A DNA stretch of 64,000 bases from Desulfoferula mesophila. GTDB lineage: Bacteria; Desulfobacterota; Desulfarculia; Desulfarculales; Desulfarculaceae. Under the pieces are notes generated by a model that saw nothing but the letters and a program-made list of their open reading frames with translations, did not search any database and was not told the origin of the DNA. Position 1 is the stretch's first letter. Every line of letters begins with the position of its first letter. The translations under genes and the position numbers were made by a program. The stretch covers positions 2,495,501 to 2,559,500 of the forward strand of contig NZ_AP028679.1 of the NCBI RefSeq assembly GCF_037076455.1, in the 5' to 3' direction. Shown in pieces: positions 51,232-62,034 of this stretch.

Positions 51232-52401
51232 ATGCCTCCCAGAATGAGCACCGCCATGGCGGGTCAGGAGCCCGCTCTCGCCCAGGGCCTGCCGCCCTTG
51301 GAGTTGAACCCCGGCCTGGTGAGCGACCCGGGCCTGAAACCGGTGGCCGCCAAGCTTATCGCCGGCGAGCGCCTGGACGCCGCCGACGGCCTGGCCTTGA
51401 TGACCAGCCAGGACCTCTTGGGCCTGGGCGCCCTGGCCCATGCCGCCCGCCTGGCCAAAAACGGCCTGGCCACCCATTACGTGCTCAACCGCCAGATCAA
51501 CTACTCCAACATCTGCGGCAACCGCTGCACCTTCTGCGCCTTTTGGCGGGAGCCGGACGGCGAAGGGGCCTACCTGCTCTCTCCCCAAGAGGCCGCCGCC
51601 CTGGCCGCCGAGCACCCGGAAATGGATCTGGCCGAGCTGCACATCGTGGGCTCCTGTCATCCCGAACTGGGGCTGGATTACTATTGCGAGCTGCTGCGGG
51701 CCCTGGGCGCGGCCCGGCCCAAGGCCACCCTCAAGGCCTTTACCGCGGCCGAGATAGATCATTTCGCGTGCCGGGAAGGCATCTCCGCCCGGGAGGTGCT
51801 TAAGCGCTTCATGGACTGCGGCCTGCGGGCCCTTACCGGGGGCGGGGCCGAGGTGTTCTCTCCCCGGGTGCGGGCCAAGCTGTGCCCCACCAAGACCAGC
51901 GGCCAGCGCTGGCTGGAAGTGAGCGGCCAGGCCCACGCCCTGGGCCTGCCCACCAACGCCACCATGCTCTACGGGCACATCGAAACCCCCCAGGAACGGG
52001 TGGAGCACCTGCTGGCTCTGCGCGACCAACAGGACCTCAGCGGCGGCTTCAGCGCCTTCATCCCCCTGGCCTTCCACCCGGACAACACCGGCCTGGGCGA
52101 TATCAGCCGCACCACCGGCCTGGACGACCTCAGGGTCGTGGCGGCCAGCCGCTTGCTGTTGGACAACATCCCCCACATCAAGGCCTATTGGGTCATGCTG
52201 GGGCCCAAGGTGGCCCAGGTGGCCCTGAACTTCGGGGCCGACGACCTGGACGGCACCATCGTGGAGGAGCGCATCACCCACACCGCCGGGGCCACCACGG
52301 CCAAGGGCATGACCGAGGCTGAGCTCAGGCACCTGATAACCTCGGCGGGCTTCGTGCCGGTCCGGCGCGACAGCTTCTACCGGAGCCTGGAGCAGGATTG
52401 A
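51232..52401 (+). CDS. mqnE: Aminofutalosine synthase MqnE (radical SAM)
   Basis: A 389-aa radical SAM enzyme of the futalosine menaquinone pathway; it joins 3-[(1-carboxyvinyl)oxy]benzoate with a SAM-derived adenosyl unit. The cluster motif C-x3-C-x2-C is at C95, C99 and C102 (C-G-N-R-C-T-F-C). Three in-frame ATGs exist at the start (51232, 51247, 51256); the first has AGGGA upstream. It overlaps mqnC by one base (TGATG). Confidence 0.92.
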   Translation: MPPRMSTAMAGQEPALAQGLPPLELNPGLVSDPGLKPVAAKLIAGERLDAADGLALMTSQDLLGLGALAHAARLAKNGLATHYVLNRQINYSNICGNRCTFCAFWREPDGEGAYLLSPQEAAALAAEHPEMDLAELHIVGSCHPELGLDYYCELLRALGAARPKATLKAFTAAEIDHFACREGISAREVLKRFMDCGLRALTGGGAEVFSPRVRAKLCPTKTSGQRWLEVSGQAHALGLPTNATMLYGHIETPQERVEHLLALRDQQDLSGGFSAFIPLAFHPDNTGLGDISRTTGLDDLRVVAASRLLLDNIPHIKAYWVMLGPKVAQVALNFGADDLDGTIVEERITHTAGATTAKGMTEAELRHLITSAGFVPVRRDSFYRSLEQD

Positions 52402-53498
52402 TGTCCCCGGCCCGTCGCCCAAGCCCCGCCCTGGCCCAGGCCCTGCAAGCGGCCGAGACCGGCGAACGCCTCAGCCCCGAGCAGGCGGTGACCCTGCTCA
52501 CCCAAGCCGAGTTTCTGGAGCTGGGCCGTCTGGCCCATGCCGCCCGGCTGCGCCACAACCCCGAGCCGGTGGTGACCTACGCGGTGGACCGTAACATCAA
52601 CACCACCAACGAGTGCCTCTCGGGCTGCCGCTTCTGCGCCTTTTTCCGGCCTCCGGGACACGCCGAGGGCTACGTGCTCACCCCCGAGGAGCTGGGCCGC
52701 AAGATCGACGAGACCCTGGCCCTGGGCGGCACCCACATCCTCATCCAGGGCGGTCTGCACCCCAAGATCGGCGTAGAGGCCACCTGCGAGAGCTTCCGCT
52801 TCATCAAACAGCACCACCCCATTCACATCCACGGCCTGAGCCCGCCGGAGGTGGTGCACATGGCCCAGGTGGACGGCCTGAGCATCTCCGAGGCCATCGA
52901 ACGGCTGCGGGCCGCCGGGCTGGGCTCCATCCCCGGCGGTGGGGCCGAGATTTTGGTGGACCGGGTGCGCTCGGCCATCGCGCCGGGCAAGTGCGACGCC
53001 GACCAGTGGCTGGGAGTCATGGCCGAGGCCCACCGGCAGGGGCTCATGACCACGGCCACCATGATGTTCGGCAGCCTGGACACGGTTCAAGACCGGGTGG
53101 AGCATATGCGCCGCCTGCGCGAGTTGCAGGAGCAAAGCCTGTCTTTGGGCAAGGGCTCCTTCACCGCCTTCATCCCCTGGACCTTCCAACCGGCCAACAC
53201 CGCCCTGAGCCACCTGCCCCCGGCCACGGCGGTGGACTACCTGCGCACCCTGGCGGTGAGCCGCCTGTTCCTGGACAACTTCCCCCACGTGCAGGCCTCC
53301 TGGGTCACCCAGGGGGCGGGCATCGCCCAGACCGCCCTGGTATTCGGGGCCGACGACCTGGGCTCCACCATGATCGAGGAAAACGTGGTGGCCGCCGCCG
53401 GGGTCAGCTTCCGCCTGCCCCGGGAAGAACTGGTGCGCCTGGCCAACGACATCGGTTTTGCCGCCCGCCAGCGCGACGTGTTCTACAACCCCGTCTAG
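52401..53498 (+). CDS. mqnC: Cyclic dehypoxanthinyl futalosine synthase MqnC (radical SAM)
   Basis: A 365-aa radical SAM enzyme that cyclises dehypoxanthine futalosine. The cluster cysteines are C72, C76 and C79 (C-L-S-G-C-R-F-C-A-F-F), and the fold is that of its paralogue MqnE. ATG 52401 overlaps the mqnE stop. MqnE, MqnC and the following deaminase form one operon for menaquinone synthesis, whose product is the substrate pool of the Qrc complex encoded 3 kb away. Confidence 0.93.
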   Translation: MSPARRPSPALAQALQAAETGERLSPEQAVTLLTQAEFLELGRLAHAARLRHNPEPVVTYAVDRNINTTNECLSGCRFCAFFRPPGHAEGYVLTPEELGRKIDETLALGGTHILIQGGLHPKIGVEATCESFRFIKQHHPIHIHGLSPPEVVHMAQVDGLSISEAIERLRAAGLGSIPGGGAEILVDRVRSAIAPGKCDADQWLGVMAEAHRQGLMTTATMMFGSLDTVQDRVEHMRRLRELQEQSLSLGKGSFTAFIPWTFQPANTALSHLPPATAVDYLRTLAVSRLFLDNFPHVQASWVTQGAGIAQTALVFGADDLGSTMIEENVVAAAGVSFRLPREELVRLANDIGFAARQRDVFYNPV

Positions 53499-56553: not shown

Positions 56554-56715
56554 CTAGTGATCCGGTCCGCTAATGTGACCGGCCCACAGATCAAGCATAG
56601 TCTTCAGGATGGTCAGGGTCAAGGTGCCGAAAACCACCGTTATGATGCCGTAGAACAGGCCGAAGAAGATGATGTGGCCGATGTCCCAGATCCATTCGTA
56701 AGCAAAGGGGAACAT
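56554..56715 (-). CDS. 53-aa single-span membrane protein at the end of the qrc operon
   Basis: A short gene of 54 codons. The protein opens M-F-P-F-A-Y-E-W-I-W, has one hydrophobic helix (about residues 12-38) and a short hydrophilic tail ending G-P-D-H. The start has GGAGG at ideal spacing, and the gene begins only 12 bases after the qrcD stop, so it is part of the qrc transcript. It may be a small accessory subunit of the Qrc membrane module (inference). Confidence 0.78.
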   Translation of the reverse strand: MFPFAYEWIWDIGHIIFFGLFYGIITVVFGTLTLTILKTMLDLWAGHISGPDH

Positions 56716-56727
56716 ATCCAGGCCTCC

Positions 56728-57990
56728 TTACTCGTTGAGTTCCGGCTCTTGCGGGAAGATGGGCAGATACCGGTAGGCCAGCATGAACACCAACAACCCG
56801 AAGCCCAGCACCAGGCTGGCGATGCCCCACTCCTGCCAGGAAGGCAGGTAGGCGTGGAAGCTCTCAAAGGGCAGCACCGGCAGGGCCAGCGACTGGATGG
56901 TGAACACGAAGCGGTTCAAGGTGACGCCGATGCAGGCCAGCAGCATGGCCAGGAACATGAGGCCGTAGCTTTCGCGGACCTTTTCCTGAACCAGCATCAG
57001 GGCGGGCAGCCAGCCGCACAGGCCCAACTCCACCCACATGAGCCAGTAGCCGTAGGGAGAGTGGTACATGTCGTCCATGGTCAGGCCCGCCGCGGGCAGC
57101 TTGATATAGGCCCACCAGGCGGTGTCTGCGCTCTTGGCCACCATGTAGGTGATCAGCAGCCAGCCGCTGATCTTGCCCATGAGCATCTTGACGCTGTGCT
57201 TGGTCAGCTTGCGGCCGGTGATCTTCTCGGTGAGCATCACGATCATGGTGGTGAAGCTGGGGCCCACCGCTATGGCGCTCCAGATGAACAGGAAGAAGGT
57301 CCAGGGCCAGATGCCCAGACCGCCGCGGGCGGCAAAGGGACGGGCGTAGAGCACGCCGAACATGCCGCCCAGGGAGCCCTGGTGGAAGAAGCTCAGGAAG
57401 GTGCCGGCCGCCGCGAACACGATCATGATGGTGTGCAGGTTGTGGCCCATGGTGCCGAACTCGGGCACCCTGCTTATGCGCCGGTTGTCCAGCACCGAAG
57501 GCAGCAACTCGATGGTGAGCACGATGGCGTAGGTGGTGATGCAGAACATCACCTCGGTGAGCATGGAGTGCACGTTGGCGTGCCAGAAGCCGAACCAACC
57601 GCGGATGGGCTGGCCGATGTCGATGCCCAGCATCAAGATGGCGCCCACGTAGCAGATAAAGCCGATCAAGACCGCCGCGTTGACGATGGGCTTGAGCTCG
57701 GTCTTGCCTACTATGTAGTTGAGGAAGCTGGTGAAGAAGGCGCCCGCCCCCAGGGCGATGACCGCCAGGTCCACCACAATCCACACGCCGAAGGCGAAGT
57801 AGTCGTTCATATTGGTCTGGTTAAGACCCAGGGCCAGACACAACACCGCGCCGACGGTGAAGTAGGCCAGCAGGGTCAGGGGCAGCCCCAACCAGATCAG
57901 GAACACCTCGGGCCGGCACCGCTTGGTGCCTTTGGGCCACCAGCTCGAGTCGTCCGCGTACTTAGGTAGATCGTCTAACCATCTTCTCAT
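56728..57990 (-). CDS. qrcD: Menaquinone reductase membrane subunit QrcD (NrfD/PsrC family)
   Basis: A 420-aa inner-membrane protein with about ten transmembrane helices and the NrfD/PsrC fold. It provides the quinone site of the Qrc complex, which passes electrons from periplasmic cytochrome c3 (fed by hydrogenases and formate dehydrogenases) to menaquinone in sulfate reducers. The first 40 residues are cytoplasmic with W-W-P-K-G. Order qrcA-B-C-D on one strand is preserved. Confidence 0.9.
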   Translation of the reverse strand: MRRWLDDLPKYADDSSWWPKGTKRCRPEVFLIWLGLPLTLLAYFTVGAVLCLALGLNQTNMNDYFAFGVWIVVDLAVIALGAGAFFTSFLNYIVGKTELKPIVNAAVLIGFICYVGAILMLGIDIGQPIRGWFGFWHANVHSMLTEVMFCITTYAIVLTIELLPSVLDNRRISRVPEFGTMGHNLHTIMIVFAAAGTFLSFFHQGSLGGMFGVLYARPFAARGGLGIWPWTFFLFIWSAIAVGPSFTTMIVMLTEKITGRKLTKHSVKMLMGKISGWLLITYMVAKSADTAWWAYIKLPAAGLTMDDMYHSPYGYWLMWVELGLCGWLPALMLVQEKVRESYGLMFLAMLLACIGVTLNRFVFTIQSLALPVLPFESFHAYLPSWQEWGIASLVLGFGLLVFMLAYRYLPIFPQEPELNE

Positions 57991-58008: not shown

Positions 58009-58848
58009 CTAGTGACCGCTCTGAGGGGCGGCCTGGGCAAACTTATTGTGGCGGGTTACATAGTTGTCGGCCTTTTTGCGCACCCATTCCCGCTTGGACA
58101 TGTAATACACCTTGGGGTTGGTGTGCAGGCGTTCCAACAAACGGAAGGTGTACTCGCTGGAGATCAGCTGGTGCACCTTGTGCTTGGGGTTCTGCAGCTG
58201 CCCGAAGGTGATGGCCCCGGAGGGGCAGGCCTCGGTGCAGGCGGTCTGGTAATCCATCTCGCCCACTTCGCCGCCGCTTACCAGGGCCTTGTTGCGGGCG
58301 GCCTGGTAACGCTGGTAGCAGAAGGTGCACTTTTCGGCCACGCCGCGCATGCGCGGGCTCACAAAGGGGCTCAGGGCGCGGGGGGTTCCCTTGGGCCAAG
58401 GCACGTCGTACCAGTTGAAGTAACGAGCGTGGTAAGGACAGGCCGCGACGCAGTACCGGCAGCCGATGCACCGAGTGGGAATCTGGCTGACGATGCCGGT
58501 TTCCTCGTCATAGTCGGTGGCCGTGGCCGGGCACACGCTCACGCAGGGGGTGTGGGCCGCCTCCTCCATGGGGTCTTCCTGGAAAAACGCCTGGCCCGGC
58601 GTGCCGGAGGTGCCGCCCTGGCAGTGCATGCAGGGCCGGGGGATGAAGGCCACCTCGGTGTCGGGGAAGGACTTGCCGTTGTCGATCTGATAGACCCGCA
58701 TCCAGGTGATGGAGCGGATCTTGTCGGTCTCGTCGTGCAAGACCCCGATGTTGTTTTCGCTCATGCAGGCCACCGAACAGGCGCCGCAACCGGTGCACTT
58801 GTCCAGGTCTATGACCATGCCGAATCTCATTACGTCTTTTCGCCACAT
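58009..58848 (-). CDS. qrcC: Menaquinone reductase iron-sulfur subunit QrcC
   Basis: A 279-aa periplasm-facing ferredoxin-type subunit (DmsB/PsrB family). Cys groups read C-T-G-C-G-A-C-x3-C near residue 18, C-M-H-C with C-V-S-V-C-P near 75-105, C-I-G-C-R-Y-C-x3-C-P near 128 and C-T-F-C with C-x3-C-P near 175-210, enough for up to four clusters. No signal peptide is present, so it is probably exported with the Tat-signal subunit QrcB. It is 18 bases ahead of qrcD. Confidence 0.9.
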   Translation of the reverse strand: MWRKDVMRFGMVIDLDKCTGCGACSVACMSENNIGVLHDETDKIRSITWMRVYQIDNGKSFPDTEVAFIPRPCMHCQGGTSGTPGQAFFQEDPMEEAAHTPCVSVCPATATDYDEETGIVSQIPTRCIGCRYCVAACPYHARYFNWYDVPWPKGTPRALSPFVSPRMRGVAEKCTFCYQRYQAARNKALVSGGEVGEMDYQTACTEACPSGAITFGQLQNPKHKVHQLISSEYTFRLLERLHTNPKVYYMSKREWVRKKADNYVTRHNKFAQAAPQSGH

Positions 58849-58858
58849 AGCTACTAAC

Positions 58859-61177
58859 CTACACCTTCTCGACGCTAACCGCGGTCAGCTCCCAGACTGG
58901 CAGACCGCTCATCGGATCGGTGGTCACCTTGGCCGCTCGGTTGAAGTTCATGCCCTTGCCCTCCACCTGGAAGCCGAAGGCGCTGTGCCCAAGGCCCACC
59001 GGCGCGTAGACCACGCCGGGAGCGGCGCCCGCGAACAGGCTCAGCTTGGCGGTAAGGCTGCCGGCCACCGAGTCCACCCGAATCAGGTCTCCCTCGTGCA
59101 GGTGCAGCTCATGGGCGGTTTCGGGGTTCATTTCCACCACCAGCTTGTCCATGTCGGCCAGCATGGTGTCGGGCAAGACCTTGACCATGTAGGGGGTGAT
59201 GGCGTCGCCGCCCCAGGTGGTCCTCAGCGAAGCCGCCGCGGTGAGCAGTAGAGGCATGCCGGTGCCCAGATCCTGGGCCGCCGCCGGGGGCTCCCAGTGG
59301 GGCAGGAAAGCCGCCTCCAAACCGCCGCCCACGCCCAGGTTGGCCACCATGCGCTGGAGCATGCCGGCGTTTTCCGCCCGGCTGGATATCAGCTTGAACA
59401 GGCTCATGCTGAAGAACTCGAAGCGGCCGCTGGGGGTGCGGTACTTCACCGGGCCGTAGGCCGGCTTTTCCTGCACCCAGAAGCTTTGCTCGGCCAACTG
59501 CTCGAAGTCGCCCAAGGCCTCGGTGCGGGCCGCCAGGACCTCTTGCATGTTCTTGAAGGGCAGTGCCTGGGCCGCCTTGCCGCCCAGGCGCGAGGCCACC
59601 TGCAACAGGACCTCGCCCGCGTCCTTGGCCTGGGGCACCGCCTTGATCAGGGGGCGGTGCAGGCCGTAGGAAGCCACCGGGCTGCCGTAGGGGGTGGTGC
59701 TGTCGCCCCAGCCCTCCAGCCAATGGGTGGTGGGCAAAACCAGGTCGGCCACCGCGGCGGATTCGTCCATGAAGGGGGTCAGGGCCACCACGAAGGGGGT
59801 CTTGCGGGCCAACTCCTCCATCACCCCGGCCTGGGGGCCGTTGTAGATGAAGTTGCCGCCCACCAGAAGCAGGGCCTTGAGGCTGTAGGGCTTGCCCTCC
59901 AGAGCCGCCTTGGCCAGGGCGTCGGGGTTGTTGGTGTCCAAACCACGGGCCGGGTTGACCAAAGGCTGCACGTTGCCCGTGATGGTGCTGGCGCCGATGG
60001 CCTTGAGCGGCAGTGGCTGCTGCACCAGCACGCCGCCGGGCTTGCCGATGTTGCCCTTGAGGGCGTTCAAGGCCAACACGGCCATGAAGTCGTACATGCG
60101 CCCGGGATCGCCGGAGTTGCCGGGCCCGCAGACCGCCACGGCCCGTTTGGCCTTGGCGAAGCCCGTGGTCAGCTTGACCAGCTTTTCCATGGGCACCCCG
60201 GCCAGTTGGGCCATCTGCTCGGGGCGGTAGGTGTTGAGCACGTGGCTCTTGAAGCCCTTGAAGTCGCCTTCGTCCTTAAAGCCGAAGGAGGCCCTAACCG
60301 CCGCCTGGTCGTAGAGACCCTGCTGGATCATGATGGAGCACATGGCCAGGGCCAAGGCTCCTTCGGTGCCCGGACGGCAGGCCAGCCACAGGTCGGCCTG
60401 GCTGGCGGTGACGCTGGCCCGTGACTCCACCTGGGCCAAGAAGCTCTTGTTCTTGGGGAAGCCACGCCAGGAGGCAAAGGCCTTGCGGGTGGCCACCGGC
60501 GAACCGAAGTTTTCCAACAGCGGGGTGCCGAAGGAAACCACGTAGTCGGAGTTGGCCAGGTCGAAGCCCAGGTCGGTCTGGCCCATCATGGCCAAGCCGG
60601 CCAGGGCCAGGGTTTCGCTGGCGCTGGGGGTGAAGGCCAGGTTGGGCGATCCCAAAGCGGCCATGAGGCTCAGCAACAGCTGGCCGGTGGCGCTCTCGGG
60701 GTCTTGGCCCAGGGCCGCGATTTTTTCCGGGGTGCCCTGCCTGACGATCTCGGCCAGGTTGCCGGCCAGGATGTCCAGGGCCTCGGGCCAGCTCAGCTTG
60801 CTGTAGCGCCCGGTGGCCCGGTTGCGCAAAAGCGGGGCGGTCACCCGGACGTCGTTGTTATACAGCAGTTGCAGGGCCGAGGCGTCCTGGGGAATCACGC
60901 CGCCCTTGCTCAAGGGGTGCTCGGGGTTGCCCTCCACCCGGATGGCCCGGGTGCCGTCCACCCTGCCCTGCACCAGCCGCGCCTTGGCGCCGGTGCCGGT
61001 CTGGGGGTTGACCACGTTGGCGAAGGCCACCGCACCGTCCTCGGGCACCGGAACCCAAGACCAGTTCTGGGTCCAGATGGCGGTGTCGTCCATGAGCTTA
61101 TACACCAGGGGGCTTGCGTGCACGCCCAGTACTCCACCCACGGCCAGCTTGATAAATGCTCGTCTATCCCATTGCAT
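58859..61177 (-). CDS. qrcB: Menaquinone reductase subunit QrcB (molybdopterin-oxidoreductase-like)
   Basis: A 772-aa protein of the molybdopterin oxidoreductase family. A Tat-type signal (W-D-R-R-A-F-I-K) opens the protein. The N-terminal four-Cys [4Fe-4S] motif of true family enzymes is missing, as is known for QrcB, which carries no molybdenum. The C-terminal molydop-binding fold is complete (H-E-L-H-L-H-E-G-D-L-I near residue 690). It is the large structural subunit of Qrc. Confidence 0.9.
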   Translation of the reverse strand: MQWDRRAFIKLAVGGVLGVHASPLVYKLMDDTAIWTQNWSWVPVPEDGAVAFANVVNPQTGTGAKARLVQGRVDGTRAIRVEGNPEHPLSKGGVIPQDASALQLLYNNDVRVTAPLLRNRATGRYSKLSWPEALDILAGNLAEIVRQGTPEKIAALGQDPESATGQLLLSLMAALGSPNLAFTPSASETLALAGLAMMGQTDLGFDLANSDYVVSFGTPLLENFGSPVATRKAFASWRGFPKNKSFLAQVESRASVTASQADLWLACRPGTEGALALAMCSIMIQQGLYDQAAVRASFGFKDEGDFKGFKSHVLNTYRPEQMAQLAGVPMEKLVKLTTGFAKAKRAVAVCGPGNSGDPGRMYDFMAVLALNALKGNIGKPGGVLVQQPLPLKAIGASTITGNVQPLVNPARGLDTNNPDALAKAALEGKPYSLKALLLVGGNFIYNGPQAGVMEELARKTPFVVALTPFMDESAAVADLVLPTTHWLEGWGDSTTPYGSPVASYGLHRPLIKAVPQAKDAGEVLLQVASRLGGKAAQALPFKNMQEVLAARTEALGDFEQLAEQSFWVQEKPAYGPVKYRTPSGRFEFFSMSLFKLISSRAENAGMLQRMVANLGVGGGLEAAFLPHWEPPAAAQDLGTGMPLLLTAAASLRTTWGGDAITPYMVKVLPDTMLADMDKLVVEMNPETAHELHLHEGDLIRVDSVAGSLTAKLSLFAGAAPGVVYAPVGLGHSAFGFQVEGKGMNFNRAAKVTTDPMSGLPVWELTAVSVEKV

Positions 61178-61207: not shown

Positions 61208-61822
61208 CTATTTGTGGCAAACGAAGCAGGCGCGGTTAACGCCGTTTTCGCTATGGCACTTGGCGCAGTCGTCCATTTTCATGCGGTGGGGCGGTCCGCC
61301 CAAGCCGATGGGCCCGGTTCCCCAGATGTCCCGGCTGTAACCCGTGAGGCGGTTGTACTCATAAGGCCGCAGCTTGGTGGTCTGGCCGTGGTCGGCGTGG
61401 CACTGGGCGCACTCCAACCCGGCGCTGGCCGTGTGGGCCGCATGGGAGAAGAACACGCAGTCGGGCTGACGGGAGTACACCAGCCAGGGAATGGGCTGGT
61501 TCTTCTTCAGGTACTCGTCAAAAGCCGCCTCATTTTTCCCATCGCCCATGAGCGAACCCGCCTCGTGACACTCCTTGCAGCTCTGGATGCTGGGAATGCC
61601 CGAAAATGAGCCGTCTTCCCGCAGGGTGTGACAGGACTTGCAACTGTCGCTGACCTGCTCCAAGTGCAGCTTGTGATTGAACTGCAACGGCTGCGCCTTC
61701 TCCGCGTAGAGAATGGTGGGGGTGGCCCAGAACCCGAAGGCGGAGCCTATCACCAGTCCCACGAAGAGAAGGATCCAGTCCGCACGCGACCGCTGTTTCT
61801 TTCCTTGCTGGTGCGATGACAT
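61208..61822 (-). CDS. qrcA: Menaquinone reductase multihaem cytochrome c subunit QrcA
   Basis: A 204-aa membrane-anchored cytochrome c. One N-terminal helix (about 17-37) is followed by five canonical C-x2-C-H sites (C-K-S-C-H, C-K-E-C-H, C-A-Q-C-H, C-A-K-C-H, C-F-V-C-H). QrcA of Desulfovibrio is described with six haems; the segment C-V-F-F-S-H-A-A-H here may hold a non-canonical sixth. It accepts electrons from type I cytochrome c3. ATG 61822 has AAGGAT upstream. It is the first gene of the operon. Confidence 0.9.
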   Translation of the reverse strand: MSSHQQGKKQRSRADWILLFVGLVIGSAFGFWATPTILYAEKAQPLQFNHKLHLEQVSDSCKSCHTLREDGSFSGIPSIQSCKECHEAGSLMGDGKNEAAFDEYLKKNQPIPWLVYSRQPDCVFFSHAAHTASAGLECAQCHADHGQTTKLRPYEYNRLTGYSRDIWGTGPIGLGGPPHRMKMDDCAKCHSENGVNRACFVCHK

Positions 61823-62034
61823 AAGATCCTTGCCTCTCGCTACTCTCGATTGCCTCAAACAGACTTGCGACCCATCCGCCGGTCATGGGTCTCCGGCGGC
61901 GGCCGATACTAAAAATGGTCAGGTACAACCAACCCTTGCCTCAGCGGGTGAACTTGTCCTTTCCGGCACAAAGGCCGGCCAAAAAACAAGTCCGACCAGG
62001 ACTGGAGCAAAATAGCAGCTAAACGCGGGCCCTG

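Follow-up and report, generated by a model that had tools for sequence, protein, structure and literature searches.

A conserved single-span membrane protein encoded next to qrcD is a probable fifth component of the Qrc complex of sulfate reducers

In the genome of Desulfoferula mesophila, a stretch of 64,000 nucleotides (contig NZ_AP028679.1, positions 2,495,501 to 2,559,500, hereafter the window) carries the genes of the menaquinone reductase Qrc, and directly behind qrcD lies a small gene encoding 53 residues (56554-56715, minus strand), which an earlier note on this DNA had proposed as a fifth gene of the qrc operon. Comparative sequence analysis indicates that its product is probably a dedicated partner of Qrc, and most likely an accessory fifth subunit with a single span that packs on QrcD, for which we use the candidate name QrcE. 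Qrc is one of the main routes by which electrons from periplasmic hydrogen and formate enter the menaquinone pool in sulfate reducers, and its electrogenic activity has been measured. If a near-universal fifth component exists, the current QrcCD models and the interpretation of proteoliposome experiments are incomplete.

The window holds all four known genes, qrcA to qrcD, upstream of the small gene. The frame is real and runs on the minus strand, which the earlier note left unstated, from an ATG at 56715-56713 to a TAG at 56556-56554, and its product is MFPFAYEWIWDIGHIIFFGLFYGIITVVFGTLTLTILKTMLDLWAGHISGPDH. The start lies, as claimed, 12 nucleotides (nt) downstream of qrcD, whose TAA stop codon occupies 56730-56728, and the ribosome site was rightly described as ideal: a full AAGGAGG (56729-56723, minus strand) overlaps this stop codon, 7 nt ahead of the ATG. 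Among six congeners, the ratio of non-synonymous to synonymous substitution rates (dN/dS) ranges from 0.08 to 0.52, with a median of 0.14 over 15 pairs. Judged from these sequence data, the small gene is a conserved protein-coding gene under purifying selection. The window protein belongs to no family in Pfam or NCBIfam, the latter having models for QrcA-D and none for the small protein, and has no notable match among PDB sequences. When 51 members were compared with Pfam and NCBIfam, only isolated hits appeared (E 0.011 or worse, in at most three members each), and a profile of the small protein gave seven matches among PDB sequences, the best with an E value of 0.78 and none to a chain of the alternative complex III (ACIII).

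The gene is widely kept at this place. From a QrcD scan of the genome contigs, the best 80 of 184 relatives were used as QrcD loci, and in 68 of these an intact homologous open reading frame (ORF) of 47-76 residues starts 11-130 nt past qrcD; the earlier note had named a lack of conservation downstream of qrcD as the finding that would sink its proposal, and these loci show the opposite. Eleven of the 12 remaining loci have no adjacent copy on the same strand, and one (L056) has a broken adjacent copy. The small gene occurs elsewhere in ten of the 11 genomes lacking an adjacent copy (E <= 1.3e-18); a genome search found none in that of locus L028, which is about 1.6 Mb in size and whose contig ends 123 nt past qrcD. 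For L056, the genome search found only the frameshifted copy. In this metagenome-assembled genome, the small gene directly after qrcD (L056:6334-6480) is frameshifted by a mid-frame deletion, either an assembly error or a true loss. At another locus (L016, about 7.6-7.9 kb) the small gene lies shortly past qrcD and convergent to it, on the other strand, an arrangement that is possibly intermediate between the linked and unlinked states.

The evidence extends to the distribution of the small protein across genomes. The search profile was built from 41 small proteins, 36 of its rows being ORFs directly after qrcD and five coming from a search with the window protein. In a sample of 395 genomes from the phylum, QrcD was found in 79 genomes. 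The small protein was detected in 78 of these and in none of the 316 QrcD-negative genomes; the 78 positives have E <= 1.2e-6, and the next hits E >= 0.0016. Only one QrcD-positive genome of this sample, the 66%-complete G064, lacks the small protein, and there 126 nt separate the end of qrcD from that of the contig. As a control for sulfate reduction in general we used dsrA, which is present in 189 of the 395 genomes, 119 of them Qrc-negative. The small protein occurs in 0/119 of the latter, and therefore does not follow sulfate reduction generally; its phi coefficient with Qrc is 0.99, compared with 0.42 for dsrA. A mere marker of sulfate reduction is thus ruled out.

Two further samples, each drawn from one order, gave the same picture. 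The first order (that of G101), which from its gene content we read as the Desulfovibrionales, comprised 150 genomes, of which 105 have Qrc and 104 the small protein; 103 have both and 44 neither, so that the small protein is present in 103/105 Qrc-positive and 1/45 Qrc-negative genomes (one hit at E 0.0099, in G458, was excluded as noise). The genomes that break the pattern are G478 (85% complete), G506 (63%) and G459 (85%). In the second order (that of G190, 85 genomes), Qrc was found in 71 genomes and the small protein in 70, that is, in 70/71 Qrc-positive and 0/14 Qrc-negative genomes, the mismatch (G648) being 74% complete; by the positions in the two hit lists, the small gene lies beside qrcD throughout. 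Presence with Qrc and absence without it hence recur in all three samples (78/79, 103/105 and 70/71), which partly overlap and whose genomes are not independent, so the Fisher value computed for the phylum sample is not a true probability. A stronger point than these co-occurrence statistics is the existence of several joint absences: in one genus (g86) Qrc and the small protein are both missing from all ten genomes checked for dsrA, with a dsrA match in 10/10, and another genus (g271, 5/5) and the genome G442 likewise have dsrA without Qrc or the small protein. The small gene can also serve as a compact genomic marker for Qrc.

Linkage to the operon is far less constant than co-occurrence. 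Association of the small gene with qrcABCD, seen as an adjacent and intact copy at the 68 loci described above, holds for 40 of the 78 positive genomes of the phylum sample, where the gene lies downstream of qrcD on the same strand. The other 38 copies, recovered although the profile was built almost wholly from adjacent genes, are not placed beside qrcD, some of them lying on other contigs of fragmented assemblies and others being clearly distant; in the first order, the small gene and qrcD are at least 48 kb apart in the 27 compared genomes that have both on one contig. Nine unlinked neighbourhoods contain mostly unrelated genes. In those of G101 and G437 the nearby genes are, by our reading, ksgA, yqeY, mutS2 and dnaG, and the orthologue in N. 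vulgaris would be expected in similar surroundings. The linked and unlinked groups are nonetheless homologous (hhalign probability 99.4%, E 2.5e-21). The proposal of a fifth gene of the qrc operon therefore stands for some lineages, where the gene is adjacent, and does not extend to the rest, the gene not being placed beside qrcD in 38/78 genomes. The data support a dedicated partner of Qrc nearly throughout, and operon membership only in some lineages. On the best reading, the protein was overlooked because it is tiny and, in the Desulfovibrionales, unlinked. Some unlinked copies (L178-L189, families f76, f95 and f42) carry about 17 additional residues at the N-terminus, including a KR/R pair ahead of an LPWDIPW motif, the start codon of these copies having been chosen on ribosome-site score alone.

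The hydropathy of the homologues agrees with the earlier description of a hydrophobic protein with one predicted membrane span. The small protein is characterized by the motif LP[FW]..W.WD.[GS]H..F and a C-terminal His tail. In the alignment of 51 members, no variation occurs at P3 or F17, position 22 holds either Tyr or Trp in every case, and the weighted frequencies reach 98% for H14, 92% for W8, 87% for D11 and 85% for G31. The conserved N-terminal motif (residues 2-14, FPFAYEWIWDIGH, 56674-56712, minus strand, as are the other parts), marked by the conservation of P3, W8, W10, D11 and H14, is predicted from charge to be periplasmic. It is followed by a predicted membrane-spanning helix of about residues 14-37 (56605-56676), which has estimated boundaries and is seen in homologue hydropathy and in a low-confidence helix model over residues 12-44, and by a tail of residues 38-53 (56557-56604), which ends in His and whose charge points to the cytoplasm. 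Lys and Arg are commoner after the span than before it in 94/94 distinct sequences, and by the positive-inside rule the C-terminus would therefore be cytoplasmic and the N-terminus periplasmic. A His occurs within the last three residues in 88/94 of these sequences (63/68 linked and 25/26 unlinked).

If the protein is a Qrc subunit, the conserved helix positions H14, F17, Y22, L25 and G31 would contact QrcD, and the W.WD..H motif would lie at the periplasmic membrane interface, the side of QrcABC and the menaquinone site. In this position the protein could stabilise the membrane module, a role that small subunits with one span fill in other respiratory complexes. CydX and CcoQ are such subunits, in which a short span stabilises a respiratory membrane complex. 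The likeness concerns the way of working only, as these belong to other complexes and the small protein has no Pfam or NCBIfam family match. A bolder and rather unlikely extension is that the conserved His tail, predicted to be cytoplasmic, gathers protons where the half-channel of QrcD opens to the cytoplasm, and that the W.WD..H motif shuts off the periplasmic side close to the menaquinone site, in which case the electrogenic activity of Qrc would depend on a protein so far uncounted.

Several observations weigh against a fifth subunit. An AlphaFold2 model was made in which QrcD and the small protein, whose ATG is in frame with qrcD, are fused by read-through, with the stop codon read as Gly. 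It contains a helix at 437-469, corresponding to residues 12-44 of the small protein, with means of about 42-66 for blocks of ten residues and a mean predicted local distance difference test (pLDDT) score of 69.4 for the model, and at this low confidence the small helix is not confidently placed on QrcD. One genome (G459) carries the small protein without QrcD, and five have Qrc without the small protein (G064, G478, G506, G648 and the genome of L028), all of them incomplete or small. Co-occurrence along a shared phylogeny, moreover, is not a set of independent events. On the biochemical side, the available parts of the literature describe Qrc with four subunits (PMC13059093, PMC6303296, PMC8076601), as the earlier note had also stated, and this includes the purified complex, with mass spectrometry of pure QrcABCD (PMC6303296). 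Finally, qrcABCD was deleted in N. vulgaris and then complemented in trans in the same organism, and qrcABCD alone restored growth (available text of PMC13059093, section 2.1). The qrc phenotype reported there is a loss of growth on H2/sulfate and formate/sulfate, while lactate/sulfate growth is normal. This complementation fits a fifth component only if the small gene lies elsewhere in that genome, as would be expected. If N. vulgaris resembles the Desulfovibrionales-type genomes analysed here, its unlinked copy would have been left intact, and its role could therefore not have shown in the deletion and complementation.

A fifth Qrc subunit is not reported in the literature searched, which comprised the available text of PMC11887813 among others and stood apart from the original 2010 Qrc paper and supplementary data; no such gene is named in the accessible portions of PMC4215793 and PMC10102598, and among the matches listed for the word “QrcE” the titles concern electrodes, microscopy or electrochemistry. 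The Qrc complex thus co-occurs with a protein that its published descriptions, in those parts, do not count.

The same co-occurrence data would suit any obligate partner, and an alternative to a subunit is a dedicated assembly or maturation factor acting, for instance, in the insertion of QrcD or the docking of QrcB and QrcC, and staying outside the mature enzyme. For a factor that needs no fixed ratio to the complex, having its gene outside the operon, as in half of the positive genomes, would be tolerable; one span with short tails, however, offers hardly any space for a catalytic or chaperone function, and in many lineages the gene adjoins that of the membrane subunit, qrcD, which makes this alternative unlikely. 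We consider very improbable that the protein serves another process travelling with Qrc, such as the handling of periplasmic cytochrome c3 or menaquinone, without touching the complex: mqnE and mqnC do lie about 3 kb away in the window, and in most of the nine neighbourhoods the unlinked copies are not among redox genes, but the dsrA-positive, Qrc-negative genomes are devoid of the small protein and its ribosome site overlaps the qrcD stop codon. A chance open frame downstream of qrcD, conceivable for something short and without a family in the libraries searched, is refuted by the dN/dS values, the conserved residues and the near-perfect co-occurrence with Qrc. The earlier interpretation of a fifth Qrc component is supported at the level of sequence, from which physical association with Qrc is inferred.

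Among known systems, a precedent of similar layout is HmcD (5.8 kDa, DVU_0533), a hydrophobic peptide counted as a component of Hmc in the available parts of PMC10924467 and a table of PMC10920352. HmcD has about 51 residues and one hydrophobic stretch, and its gene starts 13 nt after the NrfD-like hmcC (L206); the adjacent copies of the small gene, and only these, likewise lie directly after an NrfD-like subunit gene and encode about 50 residues with a single span. The two differ in that no sequence similarity was detectable (hhalign probability 0.3%, with only two rows on the HmcD side). Homology to HmcD, which would be the obvious relative, is accordingly not supported, on what is a weak test with a two-row profile, although hhalign does detect relatives of such size, as in the comparison of the linked and unlinked groups. 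True Hmc, by cut-off, was present in 2/24 tested genomes carrying the small protein, which therefore does not track Hmc.

A precedent of another kind is ACIII, described as homologous to Qrc in the available text of PMC8076601. According to the portion of PMC5928083 at hand, its ActH was annotated as a hypothetical protein and identified for the first time through the map and mass spectrometry, and no density is present for ActG in the structure from R. marinus. ACIII is an example of how subunits of such complexes can escape notice until cryo-electron microscopy and mass spectrometry are applied, and ActG and ActH may be taken, by analogy, as precedents for overlooked subunits (PMC5928083, same portion). 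ActH differs in being part of the periplasmic module of ACIII and not a single-span peptide (same portion of PMC5928083). As for sequence, the small-protein profile matched no ACIII chain in the PDB, in a comparison that took in no ActG sequence.

The four qrc genes of the window, all on the minus strand, were assigned with NCBIfam models. They are qrcD (56728-57990), the NrfD-like menaquinone-reactive membrane subunit (NF041784, 627.8 bits, cut-off 570); qrcC (58009-58848), the iron-sulfur subunit (NF041782, 412.2 bits, cut-off 400); qrcB (58859-61177), the molybdopterin-binding-like subunit (NF041783, 435.7 bits, about 4 bits under the cut-off of 440); and qrcA (61208-61858 in its longest reading), the multihaem cytochrome c (NF041781, 236.1 bits from 61211-61816, cut-off 180). 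At many Desulfobacteria-type loci (L026, L036, L039-L041, L046, L049, L050 and others) qrcD is extended C-terminally by about 23-36 codons beyond the matched region, and some of the ends, for example in L027, abound in Ala, Pro and Glu; this extension is absent from the lineage of the window.

The QrcA of the window (61208-61858, minus strand) has five CxxCH motifs, as do 61 of the 63 QrcA-like ORFs with at least four such motifs in the window and the 80 loci (L002-L081). Six haems are listed for QrcA in the available text of a review (PMC8076601), and a conserved CV(F/Y)FSHAAH stretch may be a candidate for an unusual sixth haem site. On the other side of the small gene, mqnE (454 bits, cut-off 434.6) and mqnC (447.3 bits, cut-off 428.1), two genes of the futalosine pathway, adjoin on the plus strand (51232-53498); after them comes an amidohydrolase of the aminofutalosine deaminase type that scores below cut-off. 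Genes for menaquinone synthesis are in this way found about 3 kb from those of a menaquinone reductase.
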